From Thermoplasmata archaeon (GTDB lineage: Archaea; Thermoplasmatota; Thermoplasmata; Lutacidiplasmatales; UBA184): a stretch of DNA of 13,838 nucleotides. The notes beneath the pieces were generated by a model. That model did no database searches. It was not told the DNA's origin and saw nothing but the letters and a program-made list of their open reading frames with translations. Below, one piece after another: positions 242 to 13,838 of this stretch. The stretch spans positions 1 through 13,838 of the forward strand of contig JASHXS010000147.1 of NCBI GenBank assembly GCA_030043405.1. Reading direction: 5' to 3'. Position 1 is the stretch's first letter; every line of letters starts with the position of its first letter. The translations under genes were made by a program, and so were the position numbers.

Positions 242-922
242 TTAGATCGAGCGGAAGCCGCGCCGCAGGAACTGAGCGCCGGTGGAGAGCGCCAATCGAG
301 TCCGACCCGGCCAGGCCAGCGACCGTCCCCCGGGGGAGGTGGACCGTTTCCGAAGCGCCTCCAGCGCGTCGTCCACGGAACGCACTTCGTCGGGGAAGTA
401 GGTGTACGCCCGGCCGAGGTCGGGGAGCGCGTGCACGTCGCCCCCGCCGGTCGACGTGAGCGACCGCTGGGCGGCGAGATACTCGGCCCGCAAGTTGCTG
501 ACCTCCGAGTTGCGGCCGTTCCGCGCCTCCACTCCGGTGGCGGACAGCGACTCCGCGAGGTGGCGCCCCACCCCGTGTCGACGACGGAAGGGATGGGCCA
601 GGACCGATTCCCCTCCGTGGTCGCGGATCCATTCGACCGTCTCGGCCGCCGGACGGTGGGCGGGGGGGGCCTCATCGACCCCGTAGGCGAGGACGTGTCC
701 CTGCGAAGTGGAGACCTCGACGCCCGGAAGGAAGAGATAGCCTGGAAAGTCGTGTCGAAGCGCCGCCAGCTCCGCGTGGCCGGCGATGGAGTTGTGGTCC
801 GTGAGCGCAAAGCCCCGGAGACCCGCGTACGCCAACCGCTGCGCGATCGAGTCCAGGGTCAGGGACGAGTCCGGTGAGTGGCGGGAGTGGACGTGCAGAT
901 CGAGCCGAACGTCCGTCGTCAC
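242..922 (-). CDS. PHP-domain metal-dependent phosphoesterase
   Basis: This 226-residue protein carries the metal ligands of the PHP fold in order: the HxH of LDLHVHS (His10, His12), TDHNS (Asp42-His43), GVEVS (Glu69), GHVLAYG (His76), LAHPF (His110) and GGGDVHAL (Asp162, His164). PHP enzymes hydrolyse phosphoesters with a two- or three-metal centre. Relatives include TrpH/RNase AM-type nucleases, histidinol phosphatase and polymerase-linked PHP domains. The short stand-alone form with VEARNGRN resembles the TrpH-like branch, but the substrate cannot be read from sequence. The start is GTG at 922, overlapping the methionyl-tRNA synthetase stop as GTGA; no clear Shine-Dalgarno sequence precedes it, so translation is probably coupled. 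The last 35 or so residues are Arg/Ser-rich and outside the recognised fold. Confidence 0.85.
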   Translation of the reverse strand: MTTDVRLDLHVHSRHSPDSSLTLDSIAQRLAYAGLRGFALTDHNSIAGHAELAALRHDFPGYLFLPGVEVSTSQGHVLAYGVDEAPPAHRPAAETVEWIRDHGGESVLAHPFRRRHGVGRHLAESLSATGVEARNGRNSEVSNLRAEYLAAQRSLTSTGGGDVHALPDLGRAYTYFPDEVRSVDDALEALRKRSTSPGGRSLAWPGRTRLALSTGAQFLRRGFRSI

Positions 923-3174
923 CGGACCGCCGCCCCCGGAGGCACCGGTTCCGCCGGCTGTACGAGAGACCCGGGACCGAAGGTGATCACCGAACCGTGC
1001 GCGGCCTCCGCCGGGCGGGTGACCACCACGCCCCAGGCGTCCGCCGGCCAGGTCCCATCGACCTCGACGGTCGAGCCACCGACGTCGACGCGGCTCCGGC
1101 CATTGGGGTCCGAGCCGGTGACCCGGCCGACGCGCAGTCGGTAGCTGCTAAACTCCTCGTAGGAGATGGTCCGGTCCTCCCGCGAAGCGCTCGGCGCCAG
1201 GGCCCCGGCCGCCGTGCCCGCGGGCGGCGCGAGGAGGACGGGTCGGCCGTCCCGTTCGGCCGCCAGCACCATCCCCTGCGAGGTGATGCCCCGGATCGTA
1301 CGGGGCGCGAGGTTGGCGAGCACGACAATCCCGCGGTCGGGCAGCTGGTCGATCGGGTAGGCGCCCCGGATCCCGGCGACGATCGTCCGGGGTCGCTCCT
1401 CCCCCAGATCGACCTCCAAGACCAGGAGCCGATCCGCGGAGGGATGTTCGCGGGCCGATCGGATCACGCCCGCCCGGATCGAAAGTGGGGGGACCGAAGC
1501 GGTGGGAGGGGCCGGCGCCGGGGAACCGGGTTCGTCGGCAGCCTCCGCCCGCGGGAAGAGCGGTCGGACCTCGCCCAAGGCCTGGCCCGGCACGGGGGGT
1601 TCCAGGACGCGTTCCCAGTCCCCCGGTCCCGGAGGGTCGGAGTACCCGAGCATCCGGAACACCTCGGCGGCGGCGAACGGGAGTACCGGGGCGAGCCAGG
1701 TTGCGAGCGCCTTGAGCCGCCAGACCGATTCATAGAGGATCCGGGACCGCTCGGGTTCGTCCACCTGCCAGGGACGGGCCTCGTGGAACAGACGGTTCGA
1801 TTCCCGTACCGCCTCCAGCGTCCGGTCCAGGGCGGCCTTGAGGCGGACCCGCTCGTATTCCGCGGTGATCTCCCGATGGGTGTGGAGCAGCTTCTCGCCG
1901 GTCCCGCCGGCGAGGTCGGGGCGGTACAGCTCGGGCGGGGCGGGGATGCGGCCCCCGTAGCGGTCCCGGACCAGGACCAGGGTACGCTGCACGAGGTTCC
2001 CGAACTGGTTGGCGAGGATCTCGTCCCGGACCTTCTCGAGTTCGTCCCAGTCGAGCTCCGTGTCGTGGTTCTCGGGCGCGAGCAGCGCCGCGTAGAACCG
2101 GATCACGTCCGGGGGGTAATGGGCCAGGAGCGACGGGTGAAAGGCGTCTCGGCCGGCGGCCTTGGACTTGGAGAGCTTGCCCCCCTGGATCAGGAGCCAC
2201 TCATTCGCCGGTACGTCGTCCGGCAGATGCAGGCCGCCGACCCCCAGCAGCATGCCCGGCCACAGGATCGTGTGATGGAACTTGTTGTCCTTCCCGAGGA
2301 AGTAGTAGTGCCGGGCGGGCTCGCGTTCGTCCCAGTACCGACGCCAGGCCTCCGGCCGTCCGCTGCGGACCGCCCACTCCTTCGAGGCCGATAAGTATCC
2401 GATGAGCGCCTCGAACCAGACGTAGAATCGCTTGGTATCGTACCCGTCCAGCGGGAGGGGGACACCCCAGTCGATGTCCCGCGTGATGGGCGTGGGGTGG
2501 AGGCCCTCGGCCAGGAAGTTCTCGGCCACCTTCCGCGTCCCGGGTCGCCAGTCGGGATGGGCCCCGACGTAGGCGGCGATCTGCGGTTGGAGCTTGTCGA
2601 GCTCGATGTAGAACTGCTCCGTCGGCCGGAACTCGGCGGGCGTGCCGCAGAGCGCGCATCGCGGGGACCCGAGTTCCTTCGGTTCCAGGGGACGGCCGCA
2701 ATTGTCGCACTCGTCCCCGCGCGCGGTCGGCGACCCGCAGTGCGGGCACGTCCCGACGAGGTAGCGATCCGGGAGAAACCGGGCGTGGTTCGGGCAGTAG
2801 GCGCCCTCGGTGGTGCGTCGCTGGATGAAACCGTGTTCCAAGAGCGCGAGGAAGATCTCCTGCGTGGTCCGCTGGTGCAGCACCGTGTGGGTCGTCGTGA
2901 AGAGGTCGAAGGAGATCCCCAATCGGTCGAAGGCCTCCTTGTTGATCCGGTGAAACCGCTCGGAGAGCTCGGCCGGCGTCACCCCCTCCCGCTCGGCCGC
3001 GACGAGGGCCGGCGTCCCGTGGGCATCCGACCCCGAGACCATGAGTACCTCGTCGCCCCGGAGGCGGTGGAACCGGGCGAACACGTCGGCGGCGACGTAC
3101 GTGCTGGCCAGTTGCCCCAGGTGGAAGGGCCCGTTCGCGTACGGCCACGCGACGCCGATGAAGATGCGGCCCAC
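919..3174 (-). CDS. metG: Methionyl-tRNA synthetase with C-terminal tRNA-binding domain
   Basis: This 751-residue cytosolic class I synthetase attaches methionine to initiator and elongator tRNA-Met. The HIGH-type motif is HLGQ at residues 18-21. Two zinc knuckles follow: Cys127/His130 with Cys143/Cys146, then Cys156/Cys159 with Cys173/Cys176. The KMSKS-type motif is KLSKS at 333-337, and an all-helical anticodon-binding domain runs to about 530. After a Pro/Ala linker (about 550-563) comes an EMAPII/Trbp111-like OB-fold tRNA-binding domain (564-660). A final stretch (about 670-735) begins like the same fold again. The open frame reaches back to 3273, but GTG at 3174 is preferred: it directly precedes the conserved GRIFIGVAWPYANG start and has GGAGGG six nt upstream. 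It is the first gene of a unit with the PHP gene, which overlaps it by four bases. Confidence 0.96.
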   Translation of the reverse strand: MGRIFIGVAWPYANGPFHLGQLASTYVAADVFARFHRLRGDEVLMVSGSDAHGTPALVAAEREGVTPAELSERFHRINKEAFDRLGISFDLFTTTHTVLHQRTTQEIFLALLEHGFIQRRTTEGAYCPNHARFLPDRYLVGTCPHCGSPTARGDECDNCGRPLEPKELGSPRCALCGTPAEFRPTEQFYIELDKLQPQIAAYVGAHPDWRPGTRKVAENFLAEGLHPTPITRDIDWGVPLPLDGYDTKRFYVWFEALIGYLSASKEWAVRSGRPEAWRRYWDEREPARHYYFLGKDNKFHHTILWPGMLLGVGGLHLPDDVPANEWLLIQGGKLSKSKAAGRDAFHPSLLAHYPPDVIRFYAALLAPENHDTELDWDELEKVRDEILANQFGNLVQRTLVLVRDRYGGRIPAPPELYRPDLAGGTGEKLLHTHREITAEYERVRLKAALDRTLEAVRESNRLFHEARPWQVDEPERSRILYESVWRLKALATWLAPVLPFAAAEVFRMLGYSDPPGPGDWERVLEPPVPGQALGEVRPLFPRAEAADEPGSPAPAPPTASVPPLSIRAGVIRSAREHPSADRLLVLEVDLGEERPRTIVAGIRGAYPIDQLPDRGIVVLANLAPRTIRGITSQGMVLAAERDGRPVLLAPPAGTAAGALAPSASREDRTISYEEFSSYRLRVGRVTGSDPNGRSRVDVGGSTVEVDGTWPADAWGVVVTRPAEAAHGSVITFGPGSLVQPAEPVPPGAAVR

Positions 3175-3180
3175 GAGGGT

Positions 3181-3186
3181 CCCTCC
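3181..3186 (-). promoter_or_regulatory. Ribosome binding site deciding the metG start
   Basis: GGAGGG on the minus strand stands six nt before GTG at 3174. It selects this start over the upstream in-frame ATG at 3273, whose 33-residue extension has no family counterpart. Confidence 0.75.
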
Positions 3187-3208
3187 GGGGCAAATGGCCC
3201 CTGAGCGC

Positions 3209-3220
3209 CCTAAACCTTTG
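3209..3220 (-). promoter_or_regulatory. Possible TATA box for metG
   Basis: The minus strand reads CAAAGGTTTAGG here, an A/T-richer patch in the divergent gap. With standard archaeal spacing the transcript would start near 3187, just ahead of the GGAGGG ribosome binding site, giving a leader of about 12 nt. The match to a TATA box is modest. Confidence 0.4.
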
Positions 3221-3273
3221 CGAGCGACCGGGCTTCCTGCGGCCGCGCTCGGCGACACCGCCGCACGGCGCAC

Positions 3274-10275: not shown

Positions 10276-10310
10276 GAGTTATTCGACAGTCCCCCCCAAA
10301 AAGGTATTGG
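10276..10310 (-). promoter_or_regulatory. Promoter region of the UDP-sulfoquinovose synthase gene
   Basis: Two A/T patches appear on the minus strand: CAATACCTTTTTG (about 10298-10309) and GTCGAATAACTC (about 10276-10287). With standard spacing the first would start a transcript near 10275, leaving a leader of about 16 nt. The second lies only about 21 nt from the ATG, too close for a standard box. No Shine-Dalgarno sequence precedes the ATG. Confidence 0.45.
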
Positions 10311-10348
10311 CGCCCCGGGACACGCCGTCGCACGCCATAGACCAAAGC

Positions 10349-10357
10349 AGGATAAGC
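10349..10357 (+). promoter_or_regulatory. TATA-like box for the PAC2 operon
   Basis: AGGATAAGC is centred about 27 nt before 10380. This would place the transcript start just ahead of the GGAGG ribosome binding site, giving a leader of roughly 17 nt. The GATAAG core resembles the element before the aminotransferase gene. Confidence 0.5.
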
Positions 10358-10380
10358 CCCGCACCCCTCGATGAAGACGA

Positions 10381-10385
10381 GGAGG
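10381..10385 (+). promoter_or_regulatory. Ribosome binding site for the PAC2 gene
   Basis: GGAGG stands 11 nt before ATG at 10397. The spacing is a little long, but it supports that start over the in-frame upstream ATG at 10307, which lies before the likely promoter. Confidence 0.5.
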
Positions 10386-10396
10386 TTTCACGCTCC

Positions 10397-11176
10397 ATGG
10401 ACGCTCCGCCCGTCACGGTCGTGGACACGCGCGACGAGCCGCTGAAGGGCGCCATGATGGTGGTGGGGTTTCCCACGCACGGGCTCGTGGGCTCGGTGGC
10501 GGCCTCGTACCTGGTCCACGCGCTGGACATGCAGCCGATCGCCTACATGATCAGCGAGTCGTTCCCACCGACCGTCGTGATGGAGGAAGGGATCGTCAGC
10601 GCCCCGGTCCGTCTCTACGCGAGCAAGCTGGTGTGTGGGGTCGACCGCTCCTGCGATCAGCTGGTGGTCGTGATCGCCGATATCCAGCCACCGGTGGAGA
10701 TGCTGAACTCGCTCGGTCGCGTCCTGCTCGACTGGGCCGAGGCGAAGGGGATCCATCTGGTGGTGGCCATCGAGGGGCAGCCGATCGAGACCGAGGTCGG
10801 GGCCGACGCCCGCATCGTGGCGATGGCCAACCGCGCGGCGGCCCCCCTGCTCGAAAAGTACCAGTTCGCCGCGGCGAACGGCGTGGTGACGGGGCTCGCC
10901 GGGGGGCTCCTGCTCGGCGCCATCAATCGAACGACCCCGGTCCTCTGCCTCGTCGCCCAGGCGCACAAGGACTACCCGGACGCGCGGGCCGCGGCGAAGG
11001 TGATCGAGACCGTGAACCCGCTCGTGCCGCTCATCGCGCTCGACACGAAGCCGCTCCGGGAGAAGGCCCGCCAGATCGAGTCGGAGGTGCGGCAGACCCT
11101 CCGACAGACGAAGGAATCGATGGCCACGATGCGGGAGGGCGCCACGCCGGAAGGGGCGGGTGAGATGTATCGCTGA
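10397..11176 (+). CDS. PAC2-family proteasome assembly chaperone (PbaB-like)
   Basis: This 259-residue protein belongs to the PAC2 family, whose archaeal members (PbaA, PbaB) assist assembly of the 20S proteasome in the cytosol. The core shows MMVVGFPTHGLVGSVAASYL near the start, then AYMISESFPP, VVVIADIQPP, a long hydrophobic region NGVVTGLAGGLLLGA, and LVAQAHKDYPDARAAAKVIE. Residues about 208-235 (KPLREKARQIESEVRQ and onwards) are probably a coiled coil. The protein ends Met-Tyr-Arg, which fits the HbYX pattern (hydrophobic, Tyr, any residue) by which regulators dock into pockets on the proteasome alpha ring. It appears to be the first gene of a plus-strand unit; the next gene starts inside its last 17 bases. 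Another PAC2-family role is possible, but the tail favours proteasome binding. Confidence 0.88.
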   Translation: MDAPPVTVVDTRDEPLKGAMMVVGFPTHGLVGSVAASYLVHALDMQPIAYMISESFPPTVVMEEGIVSAPVRLYASKLVCGVDRSCDQLVVVIADIQPPVEMLNSLGRVLLDWAEAKGIHLVVAIEGQPIETEVGADARIVAMANRAAAPLLEKYQFAAANGVVTGLAGGLLLGAINRTTPVLCLVAQAHKDYPDARAAAKVIETVNPLVPLIALDTKPLREKARQIESEVRQTLRQTKESMATMREGATPEGAGEMYR

Positions 11177-11666
11177 GACGTCCCCCCGGCCGAGCGAGGC
11201 GCGCCCCCCGGACGAAAGGCCCGCGGTCACGCTCCGCGGGTTCCGTCCCTCCGACATCCCGTTCGTGACGTCGATCGTCGCCGAGGCGCTCCACGAACAC
11301 TACGACCCGACCCTCTACCTCTCGCTCAGCGCCGACTGGCCGGAAGGTTTCCTGATCGCCGCCGACTCGCACGACGTGCCCGTCGCGTTCCTGTTGGGCG
11401 TCTCCCAAGTCTCCCACGAGGCCCGCATCCTGATGTTCGCCGTCGACCGACACTGGCGAACGCTCGGCATCGGACGCCTCCTGATGTCGACCTTCTTCGA
11501 ACGGTGTCGAGACCGGGGGTACCGGCGCGCGACGCTGGAGGTGCGCGTCTCCAACGCCACCGCCATCCGCTTCTACACCCGGTTCGACTACTCCGTCGTC
11601 GACCTGCTCCGGGGGTACTACTCGGACGGGGAGAACGGCTACCAGATGGCACGCGCACTGAACTGA
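11160..11666 (+). CDS. GNAT N-alpha-acetyltransferase (Ard1/RimI type)
   Basis: This 168-residue GNAT-fold acetyltransferase has the acetyl-CoA pyrophosphate loop RTLGIG (100-105). LEVRVSN (126-132), AIRFYTRFDY with Tyr139, and YYSDGENGYQMA (from Tyr153) match the archaeal Ard1/RimI group, where the equivalent block is strongly conserved. Those enzymes acetylate protein N termini, usually co-translationally or on ribosomal proteins. The fold proper begins near VTLRGFRPSD (about 23), after a charged, Pro-rich leader. The start is GTG at 11160, 17 nt inside the PAC2 gene and preceded by GGAAGGGG; no other start codon lies before the conserved region. The overlap suggests coupled translation with PAC2. 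Confidence 0.88.
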   Translation: MRCIAETSPRPSEARPPDERPAVTLRGFRPSDIPFVTSIVAEALHEHYDPTLYLSLSADWPEGFLIAADSHDVPVAFLLGVSQVSHEARILMFAVDRHWRTLGIGRLLMSTFFERCRDRGYRRATLEVRVSNATAIRFYTRFDYSVVDLLRGYYSDGENGYQMARALN

Positions 11667-11720: not shown

Positions 11721-12950
11721 ATGCCCACCTCCTGGCCCACCGCCGGGGATCTGATGTCCTCGCGGCCCGTCACGCTCCCGTTCGACGCACCGATCTCCCA
11801 GGCGCTCGGGATCATGCGCGCGAAGGGGTTCCACGAGATCCCGGTCCTGCGGCGGTCCCGGCTCGCGGGGATGATCACGTTCGAATCGCTCGCGCGGAGG
11901 GTCAGCCGAGCCGCGACGACCAAGGTGAGCGGGCTCCTGACGATGGCGCCGCTGATCACGCCGAACCTTCTCCTGCCCGAGGTCGCCGAAGCGCTGCTCG
12001 GGAGCGGGTTGCGGGGCGCCCCGGTCGTGGGACCCCGAGGCCAGCTGCTCGGGGTCATCAGCCGCACCGACCTCGTGGCCGCCTTGCCCGACCTCCCGGC
12101 GTTCCCGAACGAACGGGTCACCCGGATCGGGAGCCCCGCGAGCGTCCTCGTCCACGACGATGACACGGTGCGCGACCTCCAGAGCCGGTTCCGGGTGCTG
12201 GAAGAGCATCCGCTGCCGGTCGTGGACCGCAAGGGGCATCTCGTCGGCGCGGTCGGGGTCGCAGACCTCGCCTCCGTCCTCTGGCGGCCGGACTCGGGCG
12301 GGAAGCGGGACCTGCCGCAGCGGACGCGAGCGCTGGACGTCCTCGTGCGGTCGTTCATGCATACCCCGGCGGTCACCGTGGAGGCCGACCGGACGGCGGT
12401 GGAGGCGGCGCGTGAGATGACCGACCAGAAGGTGTCGAGCGTCTTCGTGGTCGAACAGGAGCACCCCACGCGGATCGTGGGGCAGTCCGACCTCCTCGGC
12501 CTCGTCGTCGGCGCCGGCCGCACGTCCCGCGGACCGGGTCGGATCGAGGACTGCTACGTGGAAGTCACGGGGCTTCGCGGTTCCAGCGACCCGGCGCTCC
12601 TGGCCGACATCGACCATCTGGTCGCGCAAGGGCTCAAGCGAGTCGCCCACCACGTGCACCCGTCCCTCTTCAGTCTCCACCTGAGTCCCCACTCGACGCA
12701 TCGGACAGCCGACATCACCGTCGAGGGCCGGCTCCACACGGACCGGGGGATCTTCTATTCCTCCCAGACCGGCTGGAACCTGATGGCGGGCGTCTCCGGG
12801 ATCATGGAGGAACTCACTGCCCAGGTCCAACGCGACGCCGAGAGCCGCCGGGACCGAGTGCGCAGCCGCCGACGTCCGGTCGTGGACGAGACGACCGAGG
12901 ACCCCGAGCTCGAACGTCGGATCCGCGCCGCGACCGAGGACGACGAGTAG
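11721..12950 (+). CDS. Four-CBS-domain protein with C-terminal HPF/RaiA-like domain
   Basis: This is a 409-residue protein. Four CBS repeats are visible at about 8-60, 70-122, 133-188 and 207-262; examples are MRAKGFHEIPVLRRSRLAGMI in repeat 1 and LLGVISRTDLVAAL in repeat 2. CBS pairs usually bind adenine nucleotides. Residues about 276-388 show strand-helix-strand-strand-strand-helix: CYVEVTGLRG, a helix with LVAQGLKRVAHHV, LFSLHLSP, TADITVEGRL, GIFYSS, then a helix starting GWNLMAGVSGIMEEL. This order, and the final Arg-rich helix, fit the HPF/RaiA (S30AE) fold, whose members lock ribosomes in an inactive state. A role as a nucleotide-sensing ribosome hibernation factor is inferred. The tail (391-409) is acidic. 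The NAC gene follows nine nt after the stop, and its ribosome binding site touches this stop codon. Confidence 0.8.
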   Translation: MPTSWPTAGDLMSSRPVTLPFDAPISQALGIMRAKGFHEIPVLRRSRLAGMITFESLARRVSRAATTKVSGLLTMAPLITPNLLLPEVAEALLGSGLRGAPVVGPRGQLLGVISRTDLVAALPDLPAFPNERVTRIGSPASVLVHDDDTVRDLQSRFRVLEEHPLPVVDRKGHLVGAVGVADLASVLWRPDSGGKRDLPQRTRALDVLVRSFMHTPAVTVEADRTAVEAAREMTDQKVSSVFVVEQEHPTRIVGQSDLLGLVVGAGRTSRGPGRIEDCYVEVTGLRGSSDPALLADIDHLVAQGLKRVAHHVHPSLFSLHLSPHSTHRTADITVEGRLHTDRGIFYSSQTGWNLMAGVSGIMEELTAQVQRDAESRRDRVRSRRRPVVDETTEDPELERRIRAATEDDE

Positions 12951-12959: not shown

Positions 12960-13364
12960 ATGATCCCCGGCGGTCCGCGCAACCAGCGCCAGATGGAGCT
13001 GATGATGCGGCGGATGGGCATGAAGACCGAGCCCATTGACGACGTCCAGGAAGTGATCGTCCGCACCCGGACGAAGGAGCACGTGTTCTCCCAGCCGGAG
13101 GTGACGATCCTGACCGTCCAAGGGGTCCGGACCTACCAGGTGGTCGGTCAACCCGAGATCCGGGCCCGCGGATCGGGCCCTTCGCCCACGGGCTCGCCGG
13201 CGGCGTCCACGGCGCCGCCCGCCCCGACGGGGCCCCCCGAGGAGGACATCCAATTGGTGATGGACCAGGCCCAGGTCTCCCGAGAGGAAGCCATCGAGGC
13301 CCTGTTCCGGGCGCACGGGGCGCCGGCGGAAGCCATCATGCAGCTGCTCACCCGCACGCGCTGA
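12960..13364 (+). CDS. nac: Nascent polypeptide-associated complex (NAC) protein
   Basis: This 134-residue archaeal NAC binds ribosomes and emerging chains as a homodimer. The basic N terminus with RQMELMMRRMGMKTE is the ribosome-contact region. The NAC beta-barrel follows (about 25-69), including VQEVIVRT, FSQPEVTILTVQG and TYQVVGQPE. The C-terminal UBA domain (about 94-132) reads EEDIQLVMDQAQVSREEA at its start. Between them lies a Gly/Ser/Pro/Ala/Thr linker (about 71-93), longer than I would expect for a compact archaeal NAC. Context agrees with function: an N-alpha-acetyltransferase and a ribosome-hibernation-like protein lie just upstream on the same strand. Confidence 0.95.
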   Translation: MIPGGPRNQRQMELMMRRMGMKTEPIDDVQEVIVRTRTKEHVFSQPEVTILTVQGVRTYQVVGQPEIRARGSGPSPTGSPAASTAPPAPTGPPEEDIQLVMDQAQVSREEAIEALFRAHGAPAEAIMQLLTRTR

Positions 13365-13376
13365 CGGCTCCCCCGA

Positions 13377-13838
13377 ATGGCGTTCGCCCCCCCGCCGCCG
13401 GAGTATCCGCCGCCTCCTCCGGAGGAGCCGATCGTCCAGGAGTGCGTCGAAGGGTACCTGTTCGCCCGACGTCCCTTGGAGTTCTTGATCTTCCGTCGCA
13501 TCCCACCCCGTGGGTCCATCTGGGTTCCGATCCAGGGCAAGGTCGAGCCGACGGACCGAGACTGGGAGGCGGCGCTCCGTCGCGAACTCCTCGAGGAGAC
13601 GGGCCTCGCCACGCCGCGGCAGGTCGTCCCGCTCGATTGGGACCTGGCGTTCCGGGCCCCGAACGGGGAAGCCTGGCGACTCCATGCCTTCGCCGTCGAG
13701 GTCGGGCGCGACTTTCGCCCCCGCCTCAACGAGGAGCATGTCGCCTTCGAGTGGGTCTCCCCGGACGAAGCGGACCGCCGACTGTACTTCTCGGACAACC
13801 GGGCGGCCGCGCGGCGCGTGCGGGACCGCTTCGCGGAC
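13377..13838 (+). CDS. Nudix hydrolase, cut by the window end
   Basis: This reading frame of 154 codons is open to the last base. After a Pro-rich N terminus (APPPPEYPPPPPEEP) the Nudix fold begins near IVQECVEGYLF. The Nudix box runs from Gly54 to Leu77: GKVEPT, then RRELLEETGL with Arg69, Glu70, Glu73, Glu74 and Gly76, which bind the catalytic metal. Nudix enzymes hydrolyse nucleoside diphosphates linked to another group; no substrate is evident. The spacing between the box glycine and REL is one residue longer than the textbook motif. The gene starts 12 nt after the NAC stop without a Shine-Dalgarno sequence, so a slightly different start is possible. The 3' end is missing. Confidence 0.85.
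   Translation, partial: MAFAPPPPEYPPPPPEEPIVQECVEGYLFARRPLEFLIFRRIPPRGSIWVPIQGKVEPTDRDWEAALRRELLEETGLATPRQVVPLDWDLAFRAPNGEAWRLHAFAVEVGRDFRPRLNEEHVAFEWVSPDEADRRLYFSDNRAAARRVRDRFAD

Follow-up and report, generated by a model that had tools for sequence, protein, structure and literature searches.

The locus considered here raises the question of what is encoded by an open reading frame in which four CBS domains are followed by a domain resembling the ribosome hibernation factors HPF/RaiA, and whether such a protein would place ribosome silencing under the direct control of the ATP/AMP level, as proposed in the preliminary description of this DNA. The window, that is, the whole stretch of 13,838 nucleotides that was analysed, comes from a Thermoplasmata archaeon. 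The frame lies at 11721..12950 on the plus strand, is open exactly between these positions from ATG to TAG, and encodes 409 amino acids, in which PF00571 recognizes four CBS stretches (E 1.5e-34). When the protein was compared with all PDB sequences by phmmer, the best match was chain 9sr9_H, the HibA protein of Pyrococcus abyssi, over residues 10-381 (E 7.1e-15). With a profile built from 93 homologues, the same chain was matched at E 6.5e-55, and so was 9l96_a, a 406-aa 'CBS domain-containing protein', at E 9e-45. Entry 9SR9 carries the PDB label 'Dehydrogenase' and is listed as HibA-ATP in the data statement of PMC13324472. Membership in the HibA family is firm at the sequence level, and with high confidence the window frame can be taken as the gene of the HibA ribosome hibernation factor of this archaeon.

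The fusion of CBS and HPF parts is not a product of chance or of assembly, because in the relatives sample 60 of 61 genomes contain a relative of the protein (E<=0.001), 37 of them being of the same genus, the genome of the window included; the sole genome lacking a match is 57% complete. In a wider sample of the phylum, for which genomes were requested at >=80% completeness, 68 of 118 match the profile at E<=1e-40, the match covering the CBS part only in at least G116 and G140. Two genomes of the genus also carry a second HibA-like protein: that of locus L054 (G022:C6) is 39% identical, and that of G007:C95, which covers only the CBS part and is found at a contig end, is 37% identical.

The C-terminal part of the protein is named by no Pfam or NCBIfam model: PF02482, the family of bacterial HPF/RaiA, gives no match at its curated cut-off, and the NCBIfam matches all fall on the CBS part, far below their cut-offs. 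Among the relatives, PF02482 is passed at the hibA position in five genomes. Elsewhere, weak PF02482 matches in G000:C223 (13.8 bits) and G008:C33 (14.8 bits) were rejected as chance matches, the short frames appearing by eye to encode winged-helix proteins and not stand-alone HPFs.

An AlphaFold2 model of the full protein, computed from a 93-sequence alignment (mean pLDDT 84.5), places an HPF/RaiA-type domain at residues 276-385 (12546..12875, plus strand). Its elements follow the order strand (279-283), helix (291-308), three strands (314-325, 330-340 and 343-351) and helix (354-384), which is the order read earlier from the sequence, when a structure prediction had been proposed as the check. 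Fold searches with the full model matched four-CBS discs, and since the CBS part filled the list of matches, the C-terminal domain was folded alone from one sequence; this second model is of low confidence and its VIA-align result is therefore weak and supporting only. Entry 9SR9 was not among the best 50 listed matches of either full-model search, which is uninformative given that the structure library ends on 8 April 2026. In the profile comparison of the C-terminal part, 18 of 19 PDB matches are HPF/RaiA-type or HibA-like chains, each of them marginal alone. Pfam, phmmer, the profiles and the AlphaFold2 model, and weakly VIA-align, thus bear out the proposal that a CBS array is fused to an HPF/RaiA fold. 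Two archaeal-specific insertions characterize the HPF domain of the HibA family; in the window protein, by alignment and model, the loop 284-290 is present, and the candidate for the second insertion, loop 326-329, is shorter than in P. abyssi.

The end of the domain had been described as basic, and this holds for residues 366-386, with a net charge of +5; what follows is an acidic tail, residues 387-409, with a net charge of -7. Residues 386-409 (12876..12947, plus strand) form a tail characteristic of the genus and contain a predicted helix at 395-406, which is found in the full model and in the low-confidence model of the C-terminal part as an addition after the HPF-type fold. For the comparison of family members two sets were used: a close set, made of the best 120 listed homologues with the window protein included, and a distant set, made of the best 120 listed by similarity to one G052 protein, of which about 30 are near-copies of that protein. 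The median number of residues after position 377 is 36 in the close set versus 9 in the distant one. No earlier report of this conserved tail was found in the literature searched.

From the CBS array one could also think of an HhpR-like (CM-3) transcription regulator, or of a sensor similar to the gamma subunit of AMPK in which the C-terminal domain is an accessory. Either is highly improbable: the window protein scores 24.2 bits against the HhpR model NF053603, whose cut-off is 520, and HhpR is described in PMC13324472 as a stand-alone CBS module. Moreover, an alignment of 36 close homologues has its highest density of invariant columns in the C-terminal domain (34 in residues 276-371 versus 54 in residues 1-275). 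A promoter scan of the window relied on a bacterial consensus and is uninformative for an archaeon.

Read as HibA, the protein would act on ribosomes in the manner reported for its relatives. For the HibA family, PMC13324472 presents cryo-EM structures, inhibition of translation and the phenotype of a deletion: 70S ribosomes of P. abyssi were seen in three conformations with HibA, translation was inhibited in vitro, and in T. barophilus the deletion of HibA led to a smaller 70S pool and delayed regrowth, viability being affected only to a limited extent. By analogy, the window protein would bind ribosomes, its C-terminal domain blocking the mRNA/tRNA channel of the 30S subunit and its CBS disc occupying the vacant tRNA sites of the 50S subunit; 70S ribosomes would thereby be kept idle, assembled and protected. 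Archaea very probably use a protein of this family to clamp and protect idle ribosomes, and the role in ribosome silencing that had been guessed for the window protein gains its support from this membership.

A more specific proposal is that binding of AMP or ATP by the array acts as a direct on/off switch for ribosome binding. P. abyssi HibA binds AMP (Kd 12 uM), ADP and ATP through its CBS module, at CBS3/4, and one additional state, weakly populated, appeared with ATP, regulation being left open by the authors (PMC13324472). In the same paper neither AMP nor ATP clearly affected the binding of HibA to ribosomes, and adenylate binding at CBS3/4 is presented as a trait of P. abyssi HibA rather than as a feature defining the family.

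The nucleotide sites of the window protein can be compared with this picture domain by domain, all on the plus strand. CBS1, delimited by Pfam at residues 8-61 (11742..11903), has the motif GMITFES, in which the T is kept and the D lost. According to the model, CBS2 (about residues 69-122, 11925..12086) has the canonical motif GVISRTD, and CBS3 (about residues 132-185, 12114..12275) has GAVGVAD, in which T/S is replaced by G; in CBS4 (about residues 208-262, 12342..12506) RIVGQSD stands in place of GxxTxxD. Between the last two domains a loop of residues 188-206 (12282..12338), containing WRPDSGGKRD, is the probable counterpart of the PTC loop of HibA. It counts 19 residues versus 21 in the same columns of P. 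abyssi HibA; P190, G194 and D197 are invariant in 36 sequences, and residues 193-199 are modelled with pLDDT below 50.

Counted as sequences, which are redundant and not independent events, the motif GxxT/SxxD/N is found at CBS1 in 0 of 120 close and 3 of 120 distant proteins, at CBS2 in 119 and 89, at CBS3 in 2 and 0, and at CBS4 in 0 and 119, the remaining distant protein having a gap there. In CBS4 the D is usually retained. Since CBS3 is devoid of T/S in the distant set too, only the loss at CBS4 is special to the close set; in G022 the second HibA-like protein (L054) keeps a canonical CBS4 motif, unlike the main HibA. The natural reading of these motifs is that the adenylate site at CBS3/4 would be lost in the main HibA of the genus; a ligand could nevertheless be retained there through contacts with the backbone.

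For the array of the genus, the role of a structural plug is likelier than that of a sensor at CBS3/4, and a direct switch by ATP or AMP appears unlikely, although CBS2 retains its motif; if any nucleotide is sensed by the array, the motif points to CBS2 as the site. As the AMP-site motif is lost and the rest is kept, plugging can be separated from sensing by comparison with relatives that keep the motif, and the genus offers a natural test of the role of the CBS array.

The genes around hibA form a conserved block, all on the plus strand. Upstream are a PAC2-family protein (10307..11176; PF09754, E 2.1e-34) and, directly before hibA, a GNAT acetyltransferase (11160..11666; PF00583, E 2.3e-16) that is RimI-like, with 75.1 bits against TIGR01575, below its cut-off of 86.4. 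Directly downstream is the gene of the nascent polypeptide-associated complex, NAC (12960..13364; PF01849 and UBA_HYPK), which scores 111.6 bits against TIGR00264 (cut-off 80), followed by a NUDIX hydrolase (13377..13838; PF00293, E 1.7e-17), the last gene of the block, cut by the window end. Farther away, the window contains a tRNA-Cys (gca) at 113-185 on the minus strand, identified by ARAGORN, and on the same strand, at 919-3273, a frame judged by eye to be methionyl-tRNA synthetase-like with a C-terminal extension.

The order PAC2-GNAT-hibA-NAC-NUDIX recurs across 31 distinct loci of the genus (L001, L003-L031 and L034; L032 and L033 repeat L003 and L004). A near-full-length GNAT match precedes hibA in 29 of them, the misses being L030, at a contig end, and L031, which has a short partial match and is also devoid of a PAC2 match; the NUDIX match is absent in five loci, L005 and, at contig ends, L015, L019, L021 and L024. 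In each of the 35 genus genomes that have a NAC match, NAC comes next after hibA in the same orientation, with 26-74 bp between the matches. As a general trait this adjacency was rejected: outside the genus, 20 genomes of the relatives sample have both genes, and none shows it. At four other loci (L082, L084, L085 and L086) hibA is immediately preceded, on the same strand, by a gene that by eye resembles glycyl-tRNA synthetase.

Outside the genus, hibA has a different companion: a gene of the HDAC family (PF00850) lies downstream and convergent in 18 of the 58 same-phylum genomes with both genes. Nine of these pairs, picked by eye, are among 18 genomes of the relatives sample, at distances of 127-210 bp, and nine are among 40 additional phylum-sample genomes, at 124-423 bp. 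The genomes are G060 (L075), G041, G045, G046, G048, G050, G053, G054, where the HDAC match is in two pieces, G057, G064, G067, G073, G076, G077, G081, G082, G086 and G087. The pair was looked for by eye in the genus of the window and found in 0 of the 22 genomes with an HDAC match.

These neighbours invite the idea that HibA is linked to acetylation, either as a protein that the GNAT modifies and the HDAC-family enzyme deacetylates, or through a CBS module that controls these enzymes, as AcuB does with AcuC. GNAT, hibA and HDAC indeed stand in a row in G060. Moreover, a Y154A variant of the GNAT Pat2 of Haloferax co-purified with HVO_2384, a protein with CBS domains and a hibernation-factor domain (PMC12607858), and in Bacillus the acuABC operon encodes a GNAT, a CBS protein and a deacetylase, of which the CBS protein AcuB binds and inhibits the deacetylase AcuC (PMC13039410). 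Gene order, however, does not demonstrate interaction, and convergent genes do not share a transcript; the HDAC gene is absent from the side of hibA in the genus itself, the RimI-like character of the window GNAT suggests N-terminal acetylation, and AcuB contacts AcuC via an ACT domain (PMC13039410), whereas Pfam found only CBS domains in the window protein. We consider this connection improbable. Slightly more doubtful still is a broader version for the whole phylum, in which HibA would be wired to acetylation and nascent-chain handling and not to AMP, with GNAT, HDAC and NAC acting together with it and, the CBS3/4 site being lost in the genus, hibernation being set by the acetyl-CoA state or by a ligand of CBS2. 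The repeated pairs of hibA with HDAC and with NAC suggest, in any case, partners worth seeking. Neither pair was found reported in the literature searched, which included the main text of the HibA paper.

Returning to HibA as the preferred identity, the combination of CBS and HPF/RaiA parts is already known, the family having been published in April 2026 (PMC13324472), so novelty is unsupported, and the window protein adds one HibA to a family whose wide occurrence in archaea has been described. What had been seen and guessed from the sequence was correct, yet the protein is an ordinary member of a published family; new features could be the degenerate CBS4 site and the gene pairs. The precedent invoked for the fusion, tandem-CBS factors that dimerise ribosomes, is not supported, as the main text of the aRDF paper makes no mention of CBS and the CBS factors named in PMC13324472, Dri and HibA, are described there as blocking ribosomes rather than dimerising them.

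Among known systems, the bacterial HPF/RaiA proteins (YfiA, protein Y) are devoid of a CBS module, and their family model PF02482 misses the window protein. Dri of Pyrobaculum calidifontis (PDB 9E6Q, 9E7F) shares the fold of the CBS module and, like HibA, binds and blocks archaeal ribosomes by means of CBS modules, but it is a 655-aa chain, with two such modules and no HPF domain in the description of the HibA paper (PMC13324472), whereas the window protein has one module of four CBS domains and an HPF-like domain. HVO_2384 of Haloferax volcanii is alike by description, with tandem CBS domains and a C-terminal domain related to hibernation factors, and differs in being known as the co-purifying partner of a Pat2 variant (PMC12607858). 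The closest counterparts are the HibA proteins of P. abyssi and T. barophilus (Madru et al. 2026, PMC13324472; PDB 9SR9, 9SRA-9SRF, 9T7H), from which the window locus differs by the adjacency of hibA and NAC. With P. abyssi HibA the window protein shares the four CBS domains, the CBS3/4 loop and the C-terminal HPF/RaiA fold, in a nearly end-to-end alignment. The linker before the HPF domain has 18 residues in the window protein and in the close set, against 12 in the same columns of P. abyssi HibA and a median of 11 in the distant set, and 28 residues with a predicted helix follow the aligned end, against 13 in the 392-residue P. abyssi chain. Finally, the arrangement of the nucleotide motifs is reversed: in P. 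abyssi the motif GxxT/SxxD is preserved in CBS3 and CBS4, the ATP/AMP interface (PMC13324472), and broken in CBS1 and CBS2, whereas in the window protein CBS2 is canonical and CBS3 and CBS4 are degenerate.
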